64,000 bases of DNA from Pontibacillus sp. HMF3514 (lineage in GTDB: Bacteria > Bacillota > Bacilli > Bacillales > BH030062). Positions 48,759-56,322 of this stretch are shown here, piece after piece (the first letter of the stretch is position 1; every line of letters starts with the position of its first letter). A program made the position numbers and the translations under genes. Below the pieces are notes generated by a model. The model made no database searches, was not told where the DNA came from, and was given only the letters and a program-made list of their open reading frames with translations. The DNA is taken from positions 1,488,001 through 1,552,000 of the forward strand of contig NZ_CP047393.1 in assembly GCF_009858175.1 (NCBI RefSeq), given 5' to 3'.

Positions 48759-48766
48759 ATAAGAAA

Positions 48767-48808
48767 GGGCGAATGAGGTTTGTACAACCTTATTCGTCCT
48801 TTTTTTTG
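48767..48808 (+). terminator. Terminator of the MutS2-like gene
   Basis: GGGCGAATGAGGTT / AACCTTATTCGTCC (two G-U pairs) followed by eight T. Confidence 0.88.
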
Positions 48809-48836
48809 ACTTTTGTATAACCCAAGTGTTTAAAAA

Positions 48837-48865
48837 TTGCGGTGAGGAGGGAGGGTGTGTATAAT
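48837..48865 (+). promoter_or_regulatory. Promoter of the crtN-crtN-crtM operon
   Basis: A perfect TATAAT at 48860-48865 lies 17 bases after a weak TTGCGG. The -10 is part of the first TGTATAA operator repeat, so repressor binding would block the polymerase. Confidence 0.6.
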
Positions 48866-48898
48866 TAATGTATAACAAATGTACAAATAATTGTACAA
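48858..48898 (+). promoter_or_regulatory. Phased TGTAYAA operator, CarH/LitR-like
   Basis: Four direct repeats TGTATAA, TGTATAA, TGTACAA, TGTACAA start at 48858, 48869, 48880 and 48892 (11, 11 and 12 bases apart). Operators of the B12-dependent photoreceptor CarH in Thermus are 11-bp direct repeats of the form TnTACA near the promoter of carotenoid genes. The match in sequence, period and target gene is strong; the regulator gene is not in the window. Confidence 0.7.
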
Positions 48899-48914
48899 TG
48901 AATGGGTGAGGAAT

Positions 48915-50399
48915 ATGAAGACGATTGCAATTGTGGGAGCAGGGCCAGGTGGCTTAGCATCCGCTATGATGTTAGCAGCGCAAGGAAATGATGTTCATGT
49001 TTTTGAGAAACAACATGTTTTTGGGGGGCGTAATGCCAAGTTAAAACTAGGAGATTATGAGTTTGATGTGGGTCCTACATTTTTCAGTATGCCTCACATT
49101 TTAGAAGAAATCTTTGAAGCTAGTGGAAGAAAGCTTGAGGATTACGTAAGCTTACGAGAGTTAGATCCGATGTATCACTTGAAATTCGAGGATCAGAATC
49201 TGACCATGTATCGAGACCCTAGCAAGATGAAAAAGGAATTAAGCGAGCATTTTCCAGGAAGTGAACAAGGGTATGAGCGGTTTATGGCAGAGACTCGTAA
49301 ACGTATGGCTGCTCTAATGCCCATGTTGCAAAATCGTCATCATCGCCTCATCGATTATGTACGACCGAGAACGTTAAAAGCACTCCCACAATTGGCACTA
49401 GGAAAATCATTATATGATGTACTTTCTCAATATTTTTCAGATGAACGATTAAAATTAGCGTTCACATTTCAAGCAAAGTATCTAGGGATGTCTCCGTGGG
49501 AGTGTCCTGGGGCATTTTCTATACTATCCTTTATGGAGCATGAGTACGGTGTGTACCATCCTATTGGTGGGGTGAATCAAATCTCTAAAGCTATGGCAGA
49601 GGTGGTTGAAGAGTATGGTGGGCGCATTCACCTTAATAAAGGAGTAAATGAACTTATCCTAAATGGGTCTTCCGTGGAAGGTGTTGAACTACAAGATGGT
49701 AGTAGGTTTTATGCAGATGAAGTGATTATGAATGCAGACTTTGCACAAGCAATGTCAACACTTGTAAAACCTCAAACACTGAAAAAATATTCAAAGGAAA
49801 ATCTATCGAAAAGAAAGTATTCTTGTTCTACTTTTATGATGTATATAGGTGTTAATAAGGAAGTAGATTTACCACACCACACGATTATTTTTTCGCAAGA
49901 CTATAAACAAAATGTGGAAGAGATTACAAAAACAAAAGAGCTATCTCAGGACCCATCCATATATGTTCATAACGCATGTAAAACGGATCCGACATTAGCT
50001 CCAGAAGGAAAATCAGCTTTATATATATTAGCACCTGTCCCTAATAACTTCTCTGAAATTGATTGGGATCAAAAGAAATTAGAATATCGTAAGCTTATTT
50101 TAGAACAACTCGAAGAAAAAGCTGGTCTTTCAATTGAGGAGGATATTGAAGTAGAGAAAATCTTAACTCCAAAAGGATGGGAGCTTGACCACGATGTTTA
50201 TCAAGGGGCAACATTCAACTTTGGCCATCAGTTGTCACAAATGATGTATTTTCGTCCCCATAATCGTTTTGAAGAATTATCAAACTGTTGGATTGTTGGG
50301 GGAGGAACGCATCCAGGTAGTGGCTTACCAACTATTTTAGAATCAGCCCGTATAACATCAAACTGGTTGATGGAAAACAAAGAGGTGAAACGAGTATGA
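48915..50399 (+). CDS. crtN: C30 carotenoid desaturase, CrtN-like
   Basis: A 494-residue FAD-dependent phytoene-desaturase-type oxidoreductase. The dinucleotide fold is IAIVGAGPGGLASAMMLA followed by VFEKQHVFGGR, and the C-terminal FAD loop is WIVGGGTHPGSGLPTILESA. CrtN proteins dehydrogenate 4,4'-diapophytoene stepwise to diaponeurosporene or diapolycopene at the membrane. ATG 48915 has GTGAGG upstream. Its stop overlaps the next gene by 4 bases (ATGA). The operator before it predicts light control. Which of the two adjacent CrtN-like enzymes does the first desaturation is not clear. Confidence 0.88.
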   Translation: MKTIAIVGAGPGGLASAMMLAAQGNDVHVFEKQHVFGGRNAKLKLGDYEFDVGPTFFSMPHILEEIFEASGRKLEDYVSLRELDPMYHLKFEDQNLTMYRDPSKMKKELSEHFPGSEQGYERFMAETRKRMAALMPMLQNRHHRLIDYVRPRTLKALPQLALGKSLYDVLSQYFSDERLKLAFTFQAKYLGMSPWECPGAFSILSFMEHEYGVYHPIGGVNQISKAMAEVVEEYGGRIHLNKGVNELILNGSSVEGVELQDGSRFYADEVIMNADFAQAMSTLVKPQTLKKYSKENLSKRKYSCSTFMMYIGVNKEVDLPHHTIIFSQDYKQNVEEITKTKELSQDPSIYVHNACKTDPTLAPEGKSALYILAPVPNNFSEIDWDQKKLEYRKLILEQLEEKAGLSIEEDIEVEKILTPKGWELDHDVYQGATFNFGHQLSQMMYFRPHNRFEELSNCWIVGGGTHPGSGLPTILESARITSNWLMENKEVKRV

Positions 50400-51877
50400 A
50401 ACAAAAGATTGGTATTGTAGGTGGCGGTGTGGGTGGATTAGTTACAGCTTTGCTCCTATCCAAGGACCCTAAAAAAGAGATTACAATCTATGAGAAAAGT
50501 AATTCTTTTGGAGGACGCTTACGTTTTACAGGAAATGAAGACTTTCGTATTGACGAGGGACCTACTATTGTTTTGCTTCCTGATATGCTTTTATCCATTT
50601 TAGAAGAGGGAGGCATTTCGAAAAAACGTTTACCTCTTATAGAATGTGATCCACTTTATTCTGTAGAATATAGTAATGGTGACAGTCTACTCAAGTATCG
50701 CGATATTCAGAAACAAAAAGAGGAGATTGAACGTGTGTTTCCTGGTGACGGGGAAGGGTTCGAGCGCTTTATTAAAGATATGCGTTGGAGGTTTGTCAGG
50801 GGACAGCAACAGTTTATTAAGCAAAATTTCGTAGAAAAAAAACAATTTTTCTCCCCGAAAAATCTTCAAACGCTGGTAAAGCTTAAGGCATTCTTGCATG
50901 TGAAGCAGTTAATGAAACAATATTTCAAGCACGAAGAGTTGCAGCATACCTATGCTTTGCAAACCTTATACATTGGGGGACATCCCAGTGAATCACCAGC
51001 TCTTTATTCTCTAGTTTCTTATAGTGAGCATGAGCATGGCATTTGGTATTTAAAAGGAGGATATGCTAGTCTTATTGATATTCTAGAAGCTGAACTGAAG
51101 CAACGCGGTGTAAAGATGTTGACAAACGCTAACGTTGAACAATTATCGATACAAGATAACCATTGTGATGGTCTTCAAATGAATGGTGAGTGGCATGACT
51201 TTGATGATGTTGTGTTGAATGGAGACTTTCCTTTAATGGATGATTTACTTCCGGAGGAGCAGAAGCAAAACAAATCTTATACACCATCCTCAGGTTGTCT
51301 ATTAATCTATATGGGCTTAACCAGAAACTATACACAATCTAGTATTCATCGTTTCTTTATTGGAGACGATTTTGAAAAACATATGAAAGACGTCTTTCAG
51401 CATCGTAAAGTTCCAGTAGATCCATCCATTTATACATTCCACCCTTCCATCATAGACGATACATTAGCACCACCTGGAAAAGGTGTATTATATACACTAG
51501 TACCCGTTCCTTCTGGCAGTCATATCGATTGGAGCTGTAAAGAGGAATATGCCGAGTATATTATTCGAAAGCTTGAGGAAAAAGGGTATCCTAGTTTAAG
51601 AGATTCCATTGAATGGATGAAGGTCAAATCTCCTCAGGAATCTATGCAAGAAGGGTTGTATCAGGGCGGAAGCTTTGGAATTGCACCGACATTATTCCAA
51701 TCTGGTGTATTCAGACCTCAATTAAAACCATTTGGCATTGAGAATGTGTATGCAGTAGGAGCATCTATTCACCCTGGTGGTGGCGTTCCAATCGTTATGC
51801 AGGGAGCAAAAATGCTTTCGGATTACATGAACCAAGATGTATATATGACTTTACAAAAAAGGGGTAACGTAACATGA
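50396..51877 (+). CDS. Second CrtN-like C30 carotenoid desaturase/oxidase
   Basis: A 493-residue paralogue of the preceding desaturase: [18 protein letters not shown], then [30 protein letters not shown], and [20 protein letters not shown] near the C-terminus. It resembles CrtN of staphylococci along most of its length. It may extend desaturation or oxidise the terminal methyl group. Overlaps of 4 bases with both neighbours (ATGA) show translational coupling in a crtN-crtN-crtM operon. Confidence 0.87.
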
Positions 51878-52707
51878 TTGAACACGCATACCAACATTGT
51901 AAGTCCATCATTGATACCCATTCAAAAACATTTTCGAAAGCTTTTTCAATGCTTCCAAGGCAACAAAAAAAGGCTGTCTGGGCGGTTTATGCTTTTTGTC
52001 GGAGAGTTGACGATATAGTAGATGAAGGAGATGCACCACGGGAAGAATTAGATGCTTTCGAACGAGATTTCCACTCGTTTTTGCGTGAAGGCGAACTCCC
52101 TAGTAATGACCTGATGTGGGTAGCTTTGGATGATGTGTTTAGTGAATTTGAAATGGATTCAACTCCCTTTCAAGAAATGATAGACGGTCAACGTATGGAT
52201 TTAACTTCCCACTGGGTGGGATCTAAAGATGAGTTATTGAACTATTGCTATCATGTGGCAAGTACTGTCGGATTGATGCTTTTACCTATTCTAGCACCTG
52301 GTAGAGAAAGAAAGCTTCGTGATGGTGCAATTGCATTAGGGAAGGGGATGCAACTTACAAATATTTTACGAGATATTGGTGAGGATTTAGAGCGCGAGAG
52401 AATATATATCCCTAAAGTGATGATGGATGACTTTGATTATACCTATCAGGATCTTCAAGGGCATGTTATAAATGAACCTTTTATATCTTTATGGGAAACA
52501 TTGGCCCAGGATGCTGAAGGGTATTATACGGAAGCGCTCGAGACGATTCATGAGTACCCTTTATATTCTAGAACCCCTGTTCAAGGAGCAGCTTACCTGT
52601 ATCGAGCAATCTTACCATCAATCCGAAAAAATCAATATCAAGTGTTTTATGAGCGTAATTTTGTAAGCGATGAAGCAAAAAAAGAAATTATGAAGCAAAT
52701 GACGTAG
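51874..52707 (+). CDS. crtM: Dehydrosqualene (diapophytoene) synthase CrtM
   Basis: A 277-residue head-to-head prenyl synthase of the squalene/phytoene synthase family that condenses two farnesyl diphosphates to 4,4'-diapophytoene. The two Mg2+-diphosphate motifs are present: [11 protein letters not shown] (near 45) and [20 protein letters not shown] (near 160-175, shown here as its central part). The length and pairing with CrtN-like genes indicate the C30 rather than the C40 pathway. Last gene of the operon, followed by a terminator. Confidence 0.93.
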
Positions 52708-53067: not shown

Positions 53068-54543
53068 TCATCCATGTTTCTTCATAATAGCCTCAGCAAC
53101 GTTCTTTCCACTTAATACAACCATCGGAGACCCTCCTCCAGGGTGAGTACTTCCGCCGGCGAAGTATAGGTTCCGTATATCCTGTGATCGGTTAAATGGT
53201 CGCACAAATGCATCTACTTTACGATTGGATGCTGGACCATAAATCGAACCTCTAAAAGCACCAAACTTGTCACGAATATCTTCAGGTGTCCATACATCCT
53301 CATACTTTAATTTAGACTGAATATCAATTCCAAAAGATTTTAATCGATCATAAATCACCTGTTTATACGCCTCAGGGTCAAAATCATCGTCGTCTTCACC
53401 AATTGAAGTAGGAGGAGCGTTTACTAGAATGAAGCAATTATCCCCTTTCGGCGACACTTCAGGATCTACTTTAGAAGATGTGCATATGTATATCGTTGGC
53501 TCTGTAGCATATTGACCATTTTCAATCTGCTTAAATTCTTTCTTATAGTTACCTGAAAAGAATACATGGTGATGATGCAGGTCTGGAATTCTGCCTTCTA
53601 TTCCAGCTAGTATGACAAACCCTGAGATAGAAGGTTCAAATTCACGTACTTTCTGATTGGAAAAGTGAGGACGATGCTCTTCAGAGACCAAGTCAGGATA
53701 TGCTTTTAACAAATCTCCATTTATAATGACTTCATCAGCTTCTATCGTTTCTCCGTTCTCTAGCACTACACCTTCTACATGTTTATGATGCACACTTAAT
53801 TGTTTCACTTTTGAGTTTGCATATAACTCAACACCTAATTCTTTTGCGGCATTAACAAACCCTTTAGCAATGTTTGTATTGCCACCCTTCGTATAATACA
53901 CCCCATCAACCAGTTCCAGGTAAGCAATCATGGCAAAAGTTGCAGGGGCTATATAAGGGTTTGAACCAATATAGGTTGCATAACGATCGAGTGCTTGAAT
54001 AATACGTGGGTTTTGAAAGTACTGCTCATAAAAATCATGTATCCTCTTATTTGGTTTTACTTTTCTTAACGCATTTCCTAATTGTGGCGAAATGTAATCT
54101 TTCCATGATTGAAATGTTCGGTGAAGAAAGTGTTGATTGGATAGGGAATATAATTTCTCTATATCCCTGATAAAGTTTTTATATTTCGCTGCCCCTTTAG
54201 GATCGAATTGTTTTAATTGGTTCATCATATAAGATTCTGAAGATGATAGGTCAAAGCTCAATCCATCACTAAAGGTGTTACGTGTATGATTTGTAAGTTT
54301 TTCAAAAGTGAAATAATGGTCAGGAGGTAAGCCAGCCTTCTCCAACACATTTCGGAATACGTGAGGCATGGTAATGGTATTAGGACCAAAATCAAAATGG
54401 TAACCTTCTTGATCAACGGCCATCATCTTGCCTCCAAAGTGGCTGTTCTTTTCAAAAAGCTTTACATGATAACCTGATGACGCTAAAGTTATAGCGGCTG
54501 ATAAGCCACCTAAACCGCCACCTATGATAGCAATTGTCTTCAT
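53068..54543 (-). CDS. C30 carotenoid oxidase, CrtP-like (CrtN paralogue)
   Basis: A 491-residue FAD-dependent carotenoid enzyme: IAIIGGGLGGLSAAITLAS, FEKNSHFGGK, FDFGPNTITMPHVF, and a C-terminal YEDVWTPEDIRDKFGA...RGSIYG block, then YFAGGSTHPGGGSPMVVLSG. The EDVWTPEDI and RGxIYG features match CrtP (diaponeurosporene oxidase) of staphylococci, which oxidises a terminal methyl group to the aldehyde/acid. ATG 54543 overlaps the upstream glycosyltransferase stop (ATGA). It is the last gene of the minus-strand carotenoid operon. Confidence 0.83.
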   Translation of the reverse strand: MKTIAIIGGGLGGLSAAITLASSGYHVKLFEKNSHFGGKMMAVDQEGYHFDFGPNTITMPHVFRNVLEKAGLPPDHYFTFEKLTNHTRNTFSDGLSFDLSSSESYMMNQLKQFDPKGAAKYKNFIRDIEKLYSLSNQHFLHRTFQSWKDYISPQLGNALRKVKPNKRIHDFYEQYFQNPRIIQALDRYATYIGSNPYIAPATFAMIAYLELVDGVYYTKGGNTNIAKGFVNAAKELGVELYANSKVKQLSVHHKHVEGVVLENGETIEADEVIINGDLLKAYPDLVSEEHRPHFSNQKVREFEPSISGFVILAGIEGRIPDLHHHHVFFSGNYKKEFKQIENGQYATEPTIYICTSSKVDPEVSPKGDNCFILVNAPPTSIGEDDDDFDPEAYKQVIYDRLKSFGIDIQSKLKYEDVWTPEDIRDKFGAFRGSIYGPASNRKVDAFVRPFNRSQDIRNLYFAGGSTHPGGGSPMVVLSGKNVAEAIMKKHG

Positions 54544-55649
54544 TGATACGACCGTCCTTTCCATTTGTATGTTTTACCTGTAACTGATTTATACATGGAT
54601 CTCCATAAAACGAGGATTAATAGGACGGCGGAGATTGGCATACCGAGTGCAAAAAATCCATTTGTTCTTGTTTGGAGGTCTACGATAAATTTTTGTAATG
54701 TTACAAGTAAGTAGGGAACTATATAAAGCCAATCCATAAATAGCACACCTGAAATTAGAAAAAACAAAGGGGTTACGTAGACTGAAAAATAAAATAAAGA
54801 AAGGAATATAGCCATTATTTTCGATCGACCAATTCCTTCGAATATATTTTTTGTGAAACCATCGAAGGCATCACGTAAGGTATGGTACATATAACATGTG
54901 ACAGATGAAGTGATGTTAACCAGTATCATACGTTTTCGGTGCTTTTTAACGAGTCGGGCAAGCTGAATATCCTCAAGAATTGATCTCTTCAGTGCTTGAT
55001 GTCCACCAATCATTTCATAAGTGGTTCGTTCAATTGCGATGAATCCTCCAGAGGCTGCCGTAAATGATGGATTATAACTGTGATTCGCAATTGGAATTGG
55101 GAGATGCGCATGAACGACAAAATGTTGCAAGGTGATGAGGAGTTGAGGCCATATACCACTTGCAGGATAGTATGGAAAACCGCTTAGCATATGTGCTTTC
55201 TCTTTCTTCATCGTATGAAGCGTTTCTGAGACAATATTAGGAGCTACTCTTACATCAGCATCAATAAAAAACAAGTATTCCCCGTTAGCTTTTTGACTTA
55301 ACTGATGACAAGCAAATACTTTTCCACTCCATCCTTTAGGCAAAGGATCTCCCTGTAAAATCTGAAAGCGAGAATCATTTGTTGTTTTATCTATTAACAG
55401 AGAATAGGTTTGGTCAGTTGAAGAATCATCCAAAAGCATGAACTCGATATGATCATGGTCAACTTTTTTTAAAGAAGCGATAAGTCCTTTTACATTTTGT
55501 TCTTCATCTCTCAAAGGGATGAGGATAGATACACGCTGTCCATATTGTTTCTTGCTAGATTGCAAACGAATGACAAATAGACTGTTGAAACCTATCCAAA
55601 GCAAAAGTCCAACTTCCACTATAATCAATCCATATAAAAAATTATCCAC
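54540..55649 (-). CDS. Family 2 glycosyltransferase, CrtQ-like
   Basis: A 369-residue membrane glycosyltransferase with an N-terminal helix, a GT-A domain (VSILIPLRDEEQNV, FMLLDDSSTDQT, FIDADVRV for the DxD, and HQALKRSILEDIQLAR) and about three C-terminal helices, ending YKWKGRSYQ. The fold and the WKGRxY end resemble staphylococcal CrtQ, which glucosylates the carotenoic acid. In this operon it likely attaches sugar to the diapo-carotenoid. It overlaps the acyltransferase gene by 8 bases and the CrtP-like gene by 4. Confidence 0.83.
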   Translation of the reverse strand: MDNFLYGLIIVEVGLLLWIGFNSLFVIRLQSSKKQYGQRVSILIPLRDEEQNVKGLIASLKKVDHDHIEFMLLDDSSTDQTYSLLIDKTTNDSRFQILQGDPLPKGWSGKVFACHQLSQKANGEYLFFIDADVRVAPNIVSETLHTMKKEKAHMLSGFPYYPASGIWPQLLITLQHFVVHAHLPIPIANHSYNPSFTAASGGFIAIERTTYEMIGGHQALKRSILEDIQLARLVKKHRKRMILVNITSSVTCYMYHTLRDAFDGFTKNIFEGIGRSKIMAIFLSLFYFSVYVTPLFFLISGVLFMDWLYIVPYLLVTLQKFIVDLQTRTNGFFALGMPISAVLLILVLWRSMYKSVTGKTYKWKGRSYQ

Positions 55650-56322
55650 TTTGGTTTCTCCTTAAAAGGGGGATGGCATCTTGAACATCTTGTTCGAGAA
55701 CACGTTGTTTTAAGGTATCTAATTGTTGTGTACAAATTTGTTCCAAAAATCTTGTTTTATCTTCCCGTTTCAAAGAAGCATAAGATTCATGCATGGGATT
55801 GGAGCCAATGAAAACATAAATATTTGCCTTTTTCGTAGATTGAAATGTGTACATGATTGAGATCGGGATAACGTTTAAGTCCTGAACTTTTTCAATGATA
55901 TAAGAAGCCCCAGATTGAAACCCTAATGGGCGTTGATCAAACGGTTGTTCATCTCCTTGGGGAAACATCCAAACAGACTTATCATCGTGTAACTTTTCAA
56001 CTGCATATTGTAAGGATTCGATAATGTCCTTTGGATTGTTTCGGTCTATAGAAAAACCACCGATCCTTTTAAAAATAGGATGCTTTCTTAAGCCAGACTC
56101 ATGCATCATCGCATATCCATCACTTTTAATAAGCTTTTGATTTAACAGATAAATCAAGATAGGGTCCCACCATACACTATGATTAATTATGTACAAGGTT
56201 CGATTTACATGTTGAGGTATTGAGCCGTACACATAGATTTCTTGAAAATGTTTCTTAAGCAAAGGATAAATAATTTGGTCGAAACCCCAGGCCCAAAATC
56301 TATTTTTTTTAGCAGGAATCAT
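55642..56322 (-). CDS. PlsC-type acyltransferase of the carotenoid operon
   Basis: A 226-residue lysophosphatidate-acyltransferase-fold protein. Motif I is NHSVWWDP (HxxxxD), motif II is GGFSIDR, and motif III is VWMFPQGDEQPF, all intact, with one amphipathic or membrane segment. In context it probably esterifies the sugar of a glycosylated carotenoid with a fatty acid, doing the job of staphylococcal CrtO though from a different family. This role is inference. It overlaps its neighbours by 4 and 8 bases. Confidence 0.8.
   Translation of the reverse strand: MIPAKKNRFWAWGFDQIIYPLLKKHFQEIYVYGSIPQHVNRTLYIINHSVWWDPILIYLLNQKLIKSDGYAMMHESGLRKHPIFKRIGGFSIDRNNPKDIIESLQYAVEKLHDDKSVWMFPQGDEQPFDQRPLGFQSGASYIIEKVQDLNVIPISIMYTFQSTKKANIYVFIGSNPMHESYASLKREDKTRFLEQICTQQLDTLKQRVLEQDVQDAIPLLRRNQSG

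Follow-up and report, generated by a model that had tools for sequence, protein, structure and literature searches.

We propose that the four direct repeats at positions 48858 to 48898 of the window, the 64,000-nucleotide stretch of the Pontibacillus sp. HMF3514 genome analysed here, serve as the operator for the only CarH/LitR-type regulator that the genome encodes, and we consider it highly probable that this regulator, loaded with adenosylcobalamin (AdoCbl), represses the adjoining C30 carotenoid operon in the dark and that light releases it. The proposal builds on the array itself, on its conservation across the order, on its restriction to LitR-bearing genomes in our sample and on a regulator gene in the same genome that carries the ligand motifs. 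By analogy with published work on CarH, from which binding, repression, AdoCbl dependence and release by light are all borrowed, an oligomer of AdoCbl-loaded LitR should bind the 11-bp tandem repeats in the dark and, once bound, should block access of RNA polymerase to the C30 carotenoid operon by covering the -10 hexamer and the start region. On illumination the cobalt-carbon bond should break, the oligomer fall apart and the promoter become free. The crtN array is very probably the landing site of this B12 light-sensing repressor. Many related genomes carry such an array ahead of a stress-regulator gene as well, a hint that light may turn on a broader protective response.

On the sense strand the array reads TGTATAA (repeat 1, 48858..48864), TGTATAA (repeat 2, 48869..48875), TGTACAA (repeat 3, 48880..48886) and TGTACAA (fourth repeat, 48892..48898), with repeats 2 and 3 each lying 11 bp past the one before and the fourth 12 bp past repeat 3, exactly as the original prediction of four TGTAYAA direct repeats had it. 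We assign the units to the minus strand, where they read TTATACA, TTATACA, TTGTACA and TTGTACA; all four fit the published CarH unit TnTACA on this antisense strand, whereas only two of the four do so on the sense strand, in which the array was first written. The predicted -10 hexamer TATAAT (48860..48865, plus strand) is embedded in repeat 1, which bears out the overlap that had been claimed, and the array also extends over the start region. A -35-like hexamer, TTGCGG (48837..48842, plus strand), stands 17 bp ahead of the -10; it is absent from the list of a simple promoter scan, and five congeners have such a hexamer at the same distance from TATAAT (TTGCGG in three, TTGCAG in two). Sixteen bases separate the end of the array from the ATG of crtN (48915), and a ribosome-binding site, GGGTGAGG (48904..48911, plus strand), was recognised by eye. 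In excerpts of PMC9304148 and PMC8156234, AdoCbl-CarH of Thermus and of Bacillus megaterium is described as occupying, in the dark, tandem 11-bp repeats, three or four in number, that cover the -35 or -10, and as leaving after photolysis; here the tandem direct repeats of TnnACA/TnTACA type are present, one spacing being 12 rather than 11 bp, repeat 1 overlaps the -10 of the predicted promoter, and a CarH/LitR gene is found in the same genome.

The phasing of the array is unique within the genome. The window holds three TGTAYAAN{4,5}TGTAYAA pairs, all of them in the crtN array, and 100 dinucleotide shuffles hold none; the whole genome of 3,976,892 bases has these same three pairs and no others, with one match to a backwards-read control pattern. 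Lone TGTAYAA is common in the window (44 against 25 expected), and so it is the phased array, not the motif, that constitutes the signal. A further TGTATAA at 48814, 44 bases upstream, had been put down as perhaps due to chance; it is indeed present, none of five congeners examined has one at that distance, and it was rejected as a fifth unit and, judged by this comparison, is probably a chance occurrence. The palindromic TTGTACAA at 48780-48787 was also rejected as a related element, as it falls in the loop region of the intrinsic terminator (48761..48805, plus strand, a 20-pair stem with a T tail) that follows the upstream gene, mutS2-like by eye.

The operon behind the array lies on the plus strand and comprises a crtN-like desaturase of 494 aa (48915..50399; TIGR02734, 489 bits, cut-off 238), a second crtN-like desaturase/oxidase of 493 aa (50396..51877; TIGR02734, 325 bits, cut-off 238) and a crtM-like protein of the squalene/phytoene synthase family of 277 aa (51874..52707; PF00494, 224 bits), with a four-base overlap at each junction. 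These are the crtI_fam and SQS_PSY families, whose models cannot tell a C30 from a C40 product, and the C30 product of the crtN-crtN-crtM operon is assumed from the gene type. Convergent to this operon, on the minus strand at 53068-56322 of the window, lie a third crtN-like desaturase gene and glycosyltransferase-like and acyltransferase-like genes; the latter two labels are the best NCBIfam matches, below cut-off, and the genes might serve a glycosylated, acylated pigment.

The CarH/LitR homologue on which the original prediction depended is encoded outside the window, with its AdoCbl-binding motifs intact. Two proteins with a B12-binding_2 domain are encoded in the genome, one of which is of CarH/LitR type: LitR, 316 aa (G000:C1:2151874-2152821, minus strand), has the domain order of a class I CarH/LitR, an N-terminal MerR helix-turn-helix (MerR_1) followed by B12-binding_2 and B12-binding, all over their Pfam cut-offs. 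Its gene lies about 615 kb from crtN, and this lack of adjacency is a point against the operator reading. LitR matches Thermus CarH in the PDB (5c8d) at E 5e-25, and its best NCBIfam model is TransRegCarH (NF052513) at E 8e-40, with 136.8 bits against an equivalog cut-off of 400 that it does not reach. In the alignment with Thermus CarH, W160, E170, H171 and H207 of LitR fall on its cobalamin contacts and reproduce W-x9-EH and the lower-ligand histidine (E-x-H-x-x-G). A match to LitR exists in all eight genomes of the genus, in G002 at 43% only; a close crtN (at least 73% identity) occurs in six of the eight, the same six have TGTAYAA pairs, and the two without a close crtN have none. Among 14 aligned regulators, 12, the window species' included, keep the W, E and H together with the lower histidine, and all four contacts are lost in G002 (L053) and in Shouchella xiaoxiensis (L098), where the helix-turn-helix is conserved. 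Neither of these two has the operator at crtN, G002 having no crtN match and no TGTAYAA pair and the Shouchella crtN region scoring 9/15 on the scale given below, and such natural losses of the cobalamin ligands offer ready comparisons.

The alternative that survives best, though we regard it as unlikely, is that LitR binds the crtN array without light control in this lineage, being either light-blind or a sensor of B12 supply. Outright loss of the B12 ligands in two of the 14 aligned relatives speaks for it, as does the replacement of His132, the upper ligand of the Thermus light state, by Glu161 in LitR and by Glu in all 12 of the ligand-competent proteins, with the consequence that the light state of LitR must differ from the bis-His state of Thermus CarH (excerpt of PMC10442372). 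Most of the light-exposed H132A variant of Thermus CarH stays tetrameric according to an excerpt of PMC10442372, which also cites an earlier report of its disassembly. We take His132 to be a feature of Thermus rather than one that defines the class. Retention of the W, E, H and lower-ligand histidine in the other 12 regulators, the window species' among them, argues against loss of light control, as does the light-responsive CarH-Bm of Bacillus megaterium reported in excerpts of PMC9304148, PMC8156234 and PMC9758184.

The second B12-binding protein of the genome adjoins a STAS-domain protein (L001:1075-1728 and 339-1091, near C1:3158-3159.5 kb). By eye it has both W-x9-EH and E-x-H-x-x-G, no DNA-binding domain was found in it, and it is possibly a second B12 sensor that feeds a stress partner.

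Conservation of the crtN array was assessed in 199 genomes of the order, with crtN matches taken at E 1e-110 and LitR matches at E 1e-40, the LitR cut-offs being arbitrary. By these measures 89 genomes have crtN and 130 have LitR, with 84 having both, five crtN only and 46 LitR only (Fisher p 4e-16, a value that ignores relatedness among the genomes). For each of 90 crtN genes, those of the 89 genomes plus G001, the 330 bp upstream were scored for three TnTACA units at periods from 7 to 16, with a maximum of 15. The scores of crtN upstream regions across relatives reveal conserved repeats with a sharp 11-bp period, as the original prediction required: 68 of 86 regions score at least 13/15 at 11 bp, no other period exceeds 3/86, and shuffles reach this score in 0.23% of cases. 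The remaining four regions score 11, 13, 9 and 15, bringing the total at or above 13/15 to 70 of 90. Of the 68 arrays, 66 lie on the antisense strand, and TATAAT is found in or beside 55 of these 66. What is conserved is the three-unit 11-bp core, a perfect fourth unit at 12 bp being present in one of the 66 arrays, the window's own (G000). In a further set of 14 Bacillaceae-type loci, several of whose genomes are also among the 90, scores ranged from 9 to 15 with 8/14 at 13 or more, Shouchella being the lowest.

Among the 86 regions, the array is present in 66/76 whose genome has a close LitR, in 0/6 whose genome has only a divergent relative and in 2/4 whose genome has none at E 1e-40 (close LitR against the rest, 2/10, Fisher p 3e-5); the genomes are related by descent and are not independent observations, and LitR-negative genomes may be incomplete. 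Against the proposal, ten of the 76 with a close LitR have crtN regions below 13, for example G214 (9, with a LitR 70% identical) and G058 (10). Of genomes with an array and no LitR at E 1e-40, G069 encodes, in a 309-aa frame, a match that covers residues 21-254 at 27% identity. G196 has arrays at both crtN and mgsR and a partial LitR match the size of a B12 domain (residues 122-231, E 6e-9); a full LitR was not found in this genome, which suggests either a recent loss or a gap in the assembly.

A stricter pattern, the exact triple TRTACA-N5-TRTACA-N5-TRTACA, was searched for in the same 199 genomes and gave 90 sites in 65 genomes, all 65 of them LitR-positive, and the backward control pattern gave 0 matches. 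Half of the LitR-positive genomes have an exact triple (65/130, the 65/130 without one counting against the proposal) as against 0/69 of the LitR-negative genomes. By position, 51 sites lie at mgsR/spx-like genes, 25 at crtN, two at LitR-type genes and 12 elsewhere, these last comprising four at DUF4397 genes (a single promoter holding two of the four), one each at a photolyase gene, a carotenoid-synthesis gene and a SpoIIAA-like gene (a weak match below cut-off), two at a conserved divergent pair of NAD-binding and DAK2-like genes, and one each at UbiB-like kinase, NifU/SDR and GntR genes, where the labels DAK2-like, UbiB-like, NifU and SDR were given by eye. Taken as a set, these targets make sense together.

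This distribution weighs on a second alternative, in which some other protein that binds DNA head to tail, for instance a response regulator of the OmpR family (PhoP or WalR), would use the array and LitR would be linked to it indirectly. Direct repeats of about 11 bp also make up the Pho box, TT[ACT]A[CT]A, and the WalR box, TGT[AT]A[ACT]-N5-again, and TGTAYA is one position off the Pho box. To our knowledge, however, WalR and PhoP are near-universal in the order, which is at odds with exact triples that occur only in LitR-positive genomes of the sample; the targets, namely pigment, photolyase, redox/stress regulator and LitR-type genes, and the identity of the repeat unit with the CarH unit, as given in excerpts of the published work, also point away from an OmpR-family protein, which we judge improbable. 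That the array is nothing but AT-rich promoter sequence with overlapping TATAAT-like boxes and no repressor is scarcely credible, for although the -10 lies inside repeat 1 and TGTATAAT would make a good -10, repeats 2 to 4 are downstream of the -10, the 11-bp period is sharp with little at other periods, shuffles seldom attain 13/15 and the reversed control pattern is without a match in the 199 genomes.

With the crtN array read as a LitR operator, the arrays at the stress-regulator gene extend the proposal. The product of this gene belongs to the Spx/MgsR family (NCBIfam TIGR01617, 126 bits, cut-off 75; the broad Spx subfamily NF002459, 136 bits, cut-off 123) and falls below the cut-offs of the Spx and SpxA equivalogs; family membership is thus tested by profile, and the name MgsR, which rests on synteny, is provisional. 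The mgsR-like gene adjoins a DUF2626 gene and, in L112, also MBL-fold and ComG-like genes (by eye), a neighbourhood that we take to be the yqgX-yqgY-yqgZ(mgsR)-comG order of B. subtilis. Besides the mgsR-like gene, G005 has a separate Spx-like one (L060, by eye). An 11-bp array of at least 13/15 stands at mgsR in 70 of 82 genomes, a set to which G001 and G003, outside the original list, were added and from which a weaker second match in G040 was left out; other periods account for no more than five, and shuffles for 0.12%. Most of these arrays (58/70) are on the sense strand. LitR-positive genomes have the array in 68 of 74 cases, leaving six without, and LitR-negative genomes in two of eight (Fisher p 6e-5). 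In the window's own genome the mgsR array (L102:2177-2215 = C1:2579176-2579214) has four units, one of them imperfect, scores 14/15 and lies 36 bp before the start codon, and G003, which has no crtN close to the window's, has a LitR 97% identical and an mgsR array of 13/15.

As the same type of operator stands at the mgsR/spx-like gene, the pigment operon probably belongs to a light regulon with other members, and the earlier view of the pigment operon as target is upheld, but the predicted regulon is wider than the crtN operon, with its commonest site at an MgsR/Spx-type stress-regulator gene. We think it likely that the commonest conserved CarH/LitR target in the Bacillus order is this MgsR/Spx-family gene. 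Light, acting by photolysis of AdoCbl, would then feed directly into a redox/general-stress branch; carotenoids would respond alongside and, in some genomes, so would photolyase, a secreted DUF4397 protein and LitR-type regulators themselves. In B. subtilis MgsR regulates a subregulon of sigma-B (PMC7235348). No link between mgsR and CarH/LitR was found in a literature search that did not cover two primary B. megaterium papers, where an earlier mention may exist. The crtN operator joins an already known type of CarH operator, and the mgsR link is, as far as we found, the unpublished part.

In B. (Priestia) megaterium QM B1551, litR and the crt operon are reportedly the targets of LitR (attributed to Takano, 2015). 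Our results extend to Pontibacillus the B12 light switch described in B. megaterium, and comparison of genomes carries it further, to crtN promoters in most (70/90) of the crtN-bearing genomes sampled from the order. Excerpts of PMC9304148 describe CarH/LitR of B. megaterium as an AdoCbl-dependent tetramer and the CarH-Bm operator as a set of four 11-bp units nnnnTnnACAn, one of which may be a pseudo-repeat, placed over a -35 or -10, and an excerpt of PMC9758184 describes LitR of this species as a negative regulator of light-induced carotenoid production. The array shares with that of strain QM B1551, so far as those excerpts depict it, tandem 11-bp repeats that overlap a promoter hexamer, and differs from it in having a conserved crtN core of three repeats, the perfect fourth at 12 bp being confined to the window species, and in a unit that reads T(A/G)TACA on the antisense strand. 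Thermus thermophilus CarH, in the excerpts consulted, likewise has three tandem 11-bp repeats over its promoter, and it shares the MerR and B12 domains, W-x9-EH and the lower histidine; its operator, however, takes in the -35 where the crtN array takes in the -10, and LitR is only distantly similar to it and lacks its His132. The carotenoid pathway of the Myxococcales is a C40 pathway. Their CarH/CarA operators are also built of tandem 11-bp repeats, there plastic in number and quality (excerpt of PMC9304148), and in the Cystobacterineae carH is described as lying within the carotenoid operon, unlike the distant regulator gene found here. The class II LitR proteins PplR1 and PmlR2 of Pseudomonas resemble our case in their half-sites, T(G/A)TACA and TGTA(C/T)A, and in having photolyase among the light-inducible genes, but their sites are pairs with N12 between half-sites, they are thought not to bind B12, and PmlR2 answers to a LOV protein (all from excerpts of PMC9758184).

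The promoters of litR itself provide side evidence only, because their period test was moderate, and autoregulation was accordingly not retained as proof. Several Pontibacillus, Rossellomorea and Bacillus genomes have looser TnnACA units, spaced at 11 bp, over the litR -35, and the general site search also caught sites just before litR in two genomes, G006 and G007; in the window species the litR array is degenerate (9/12). At least 10/12 was reached in 13/23 regions at 11 bp and in 9/23 at 9 bp, after 5/28 regions in which the anchor motif was not found had been dropped, and the 23 are not all independent, L085 being identical in sequence to L052. Exact triples also precede the genes for a diverged MerR+B12 type in L318 (G056) and L324 (G198), whose proteins share 34-35% identity with the LitR of the window species; this placement suggests autoregulation.

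Several minor sites were also noted. Weak sites in the window's own genome near spoVT-like and sucC-like genes (by eye; L104, L105) were set aside as probable chance. In three genomes of the genus a protoglobin-MCP (HemAT-like) gene is closely preceded by such repeats, a one-mismatch array in the window's own genome (L103:2084-2111) and in G003 (L107:2052-2079) and an exact pair in G006 (L061), the Pfam domains referring to the own-genome copy only. TRTACA-type arrays or pairs, some with one to two mismatches, stand upstream of the DUF4397 gene, secreted by eye, in L110 (G001), L109 (G004), L113 (G006), L063 (G008), L312 (G195) and L317 (G108). Finally, the exact triple at L316:1754-1781 (G040) has a gene of the DNA photolyase family on one side and, on the other, a divergent gene that by eye is FAD/amine-oxidase-like.
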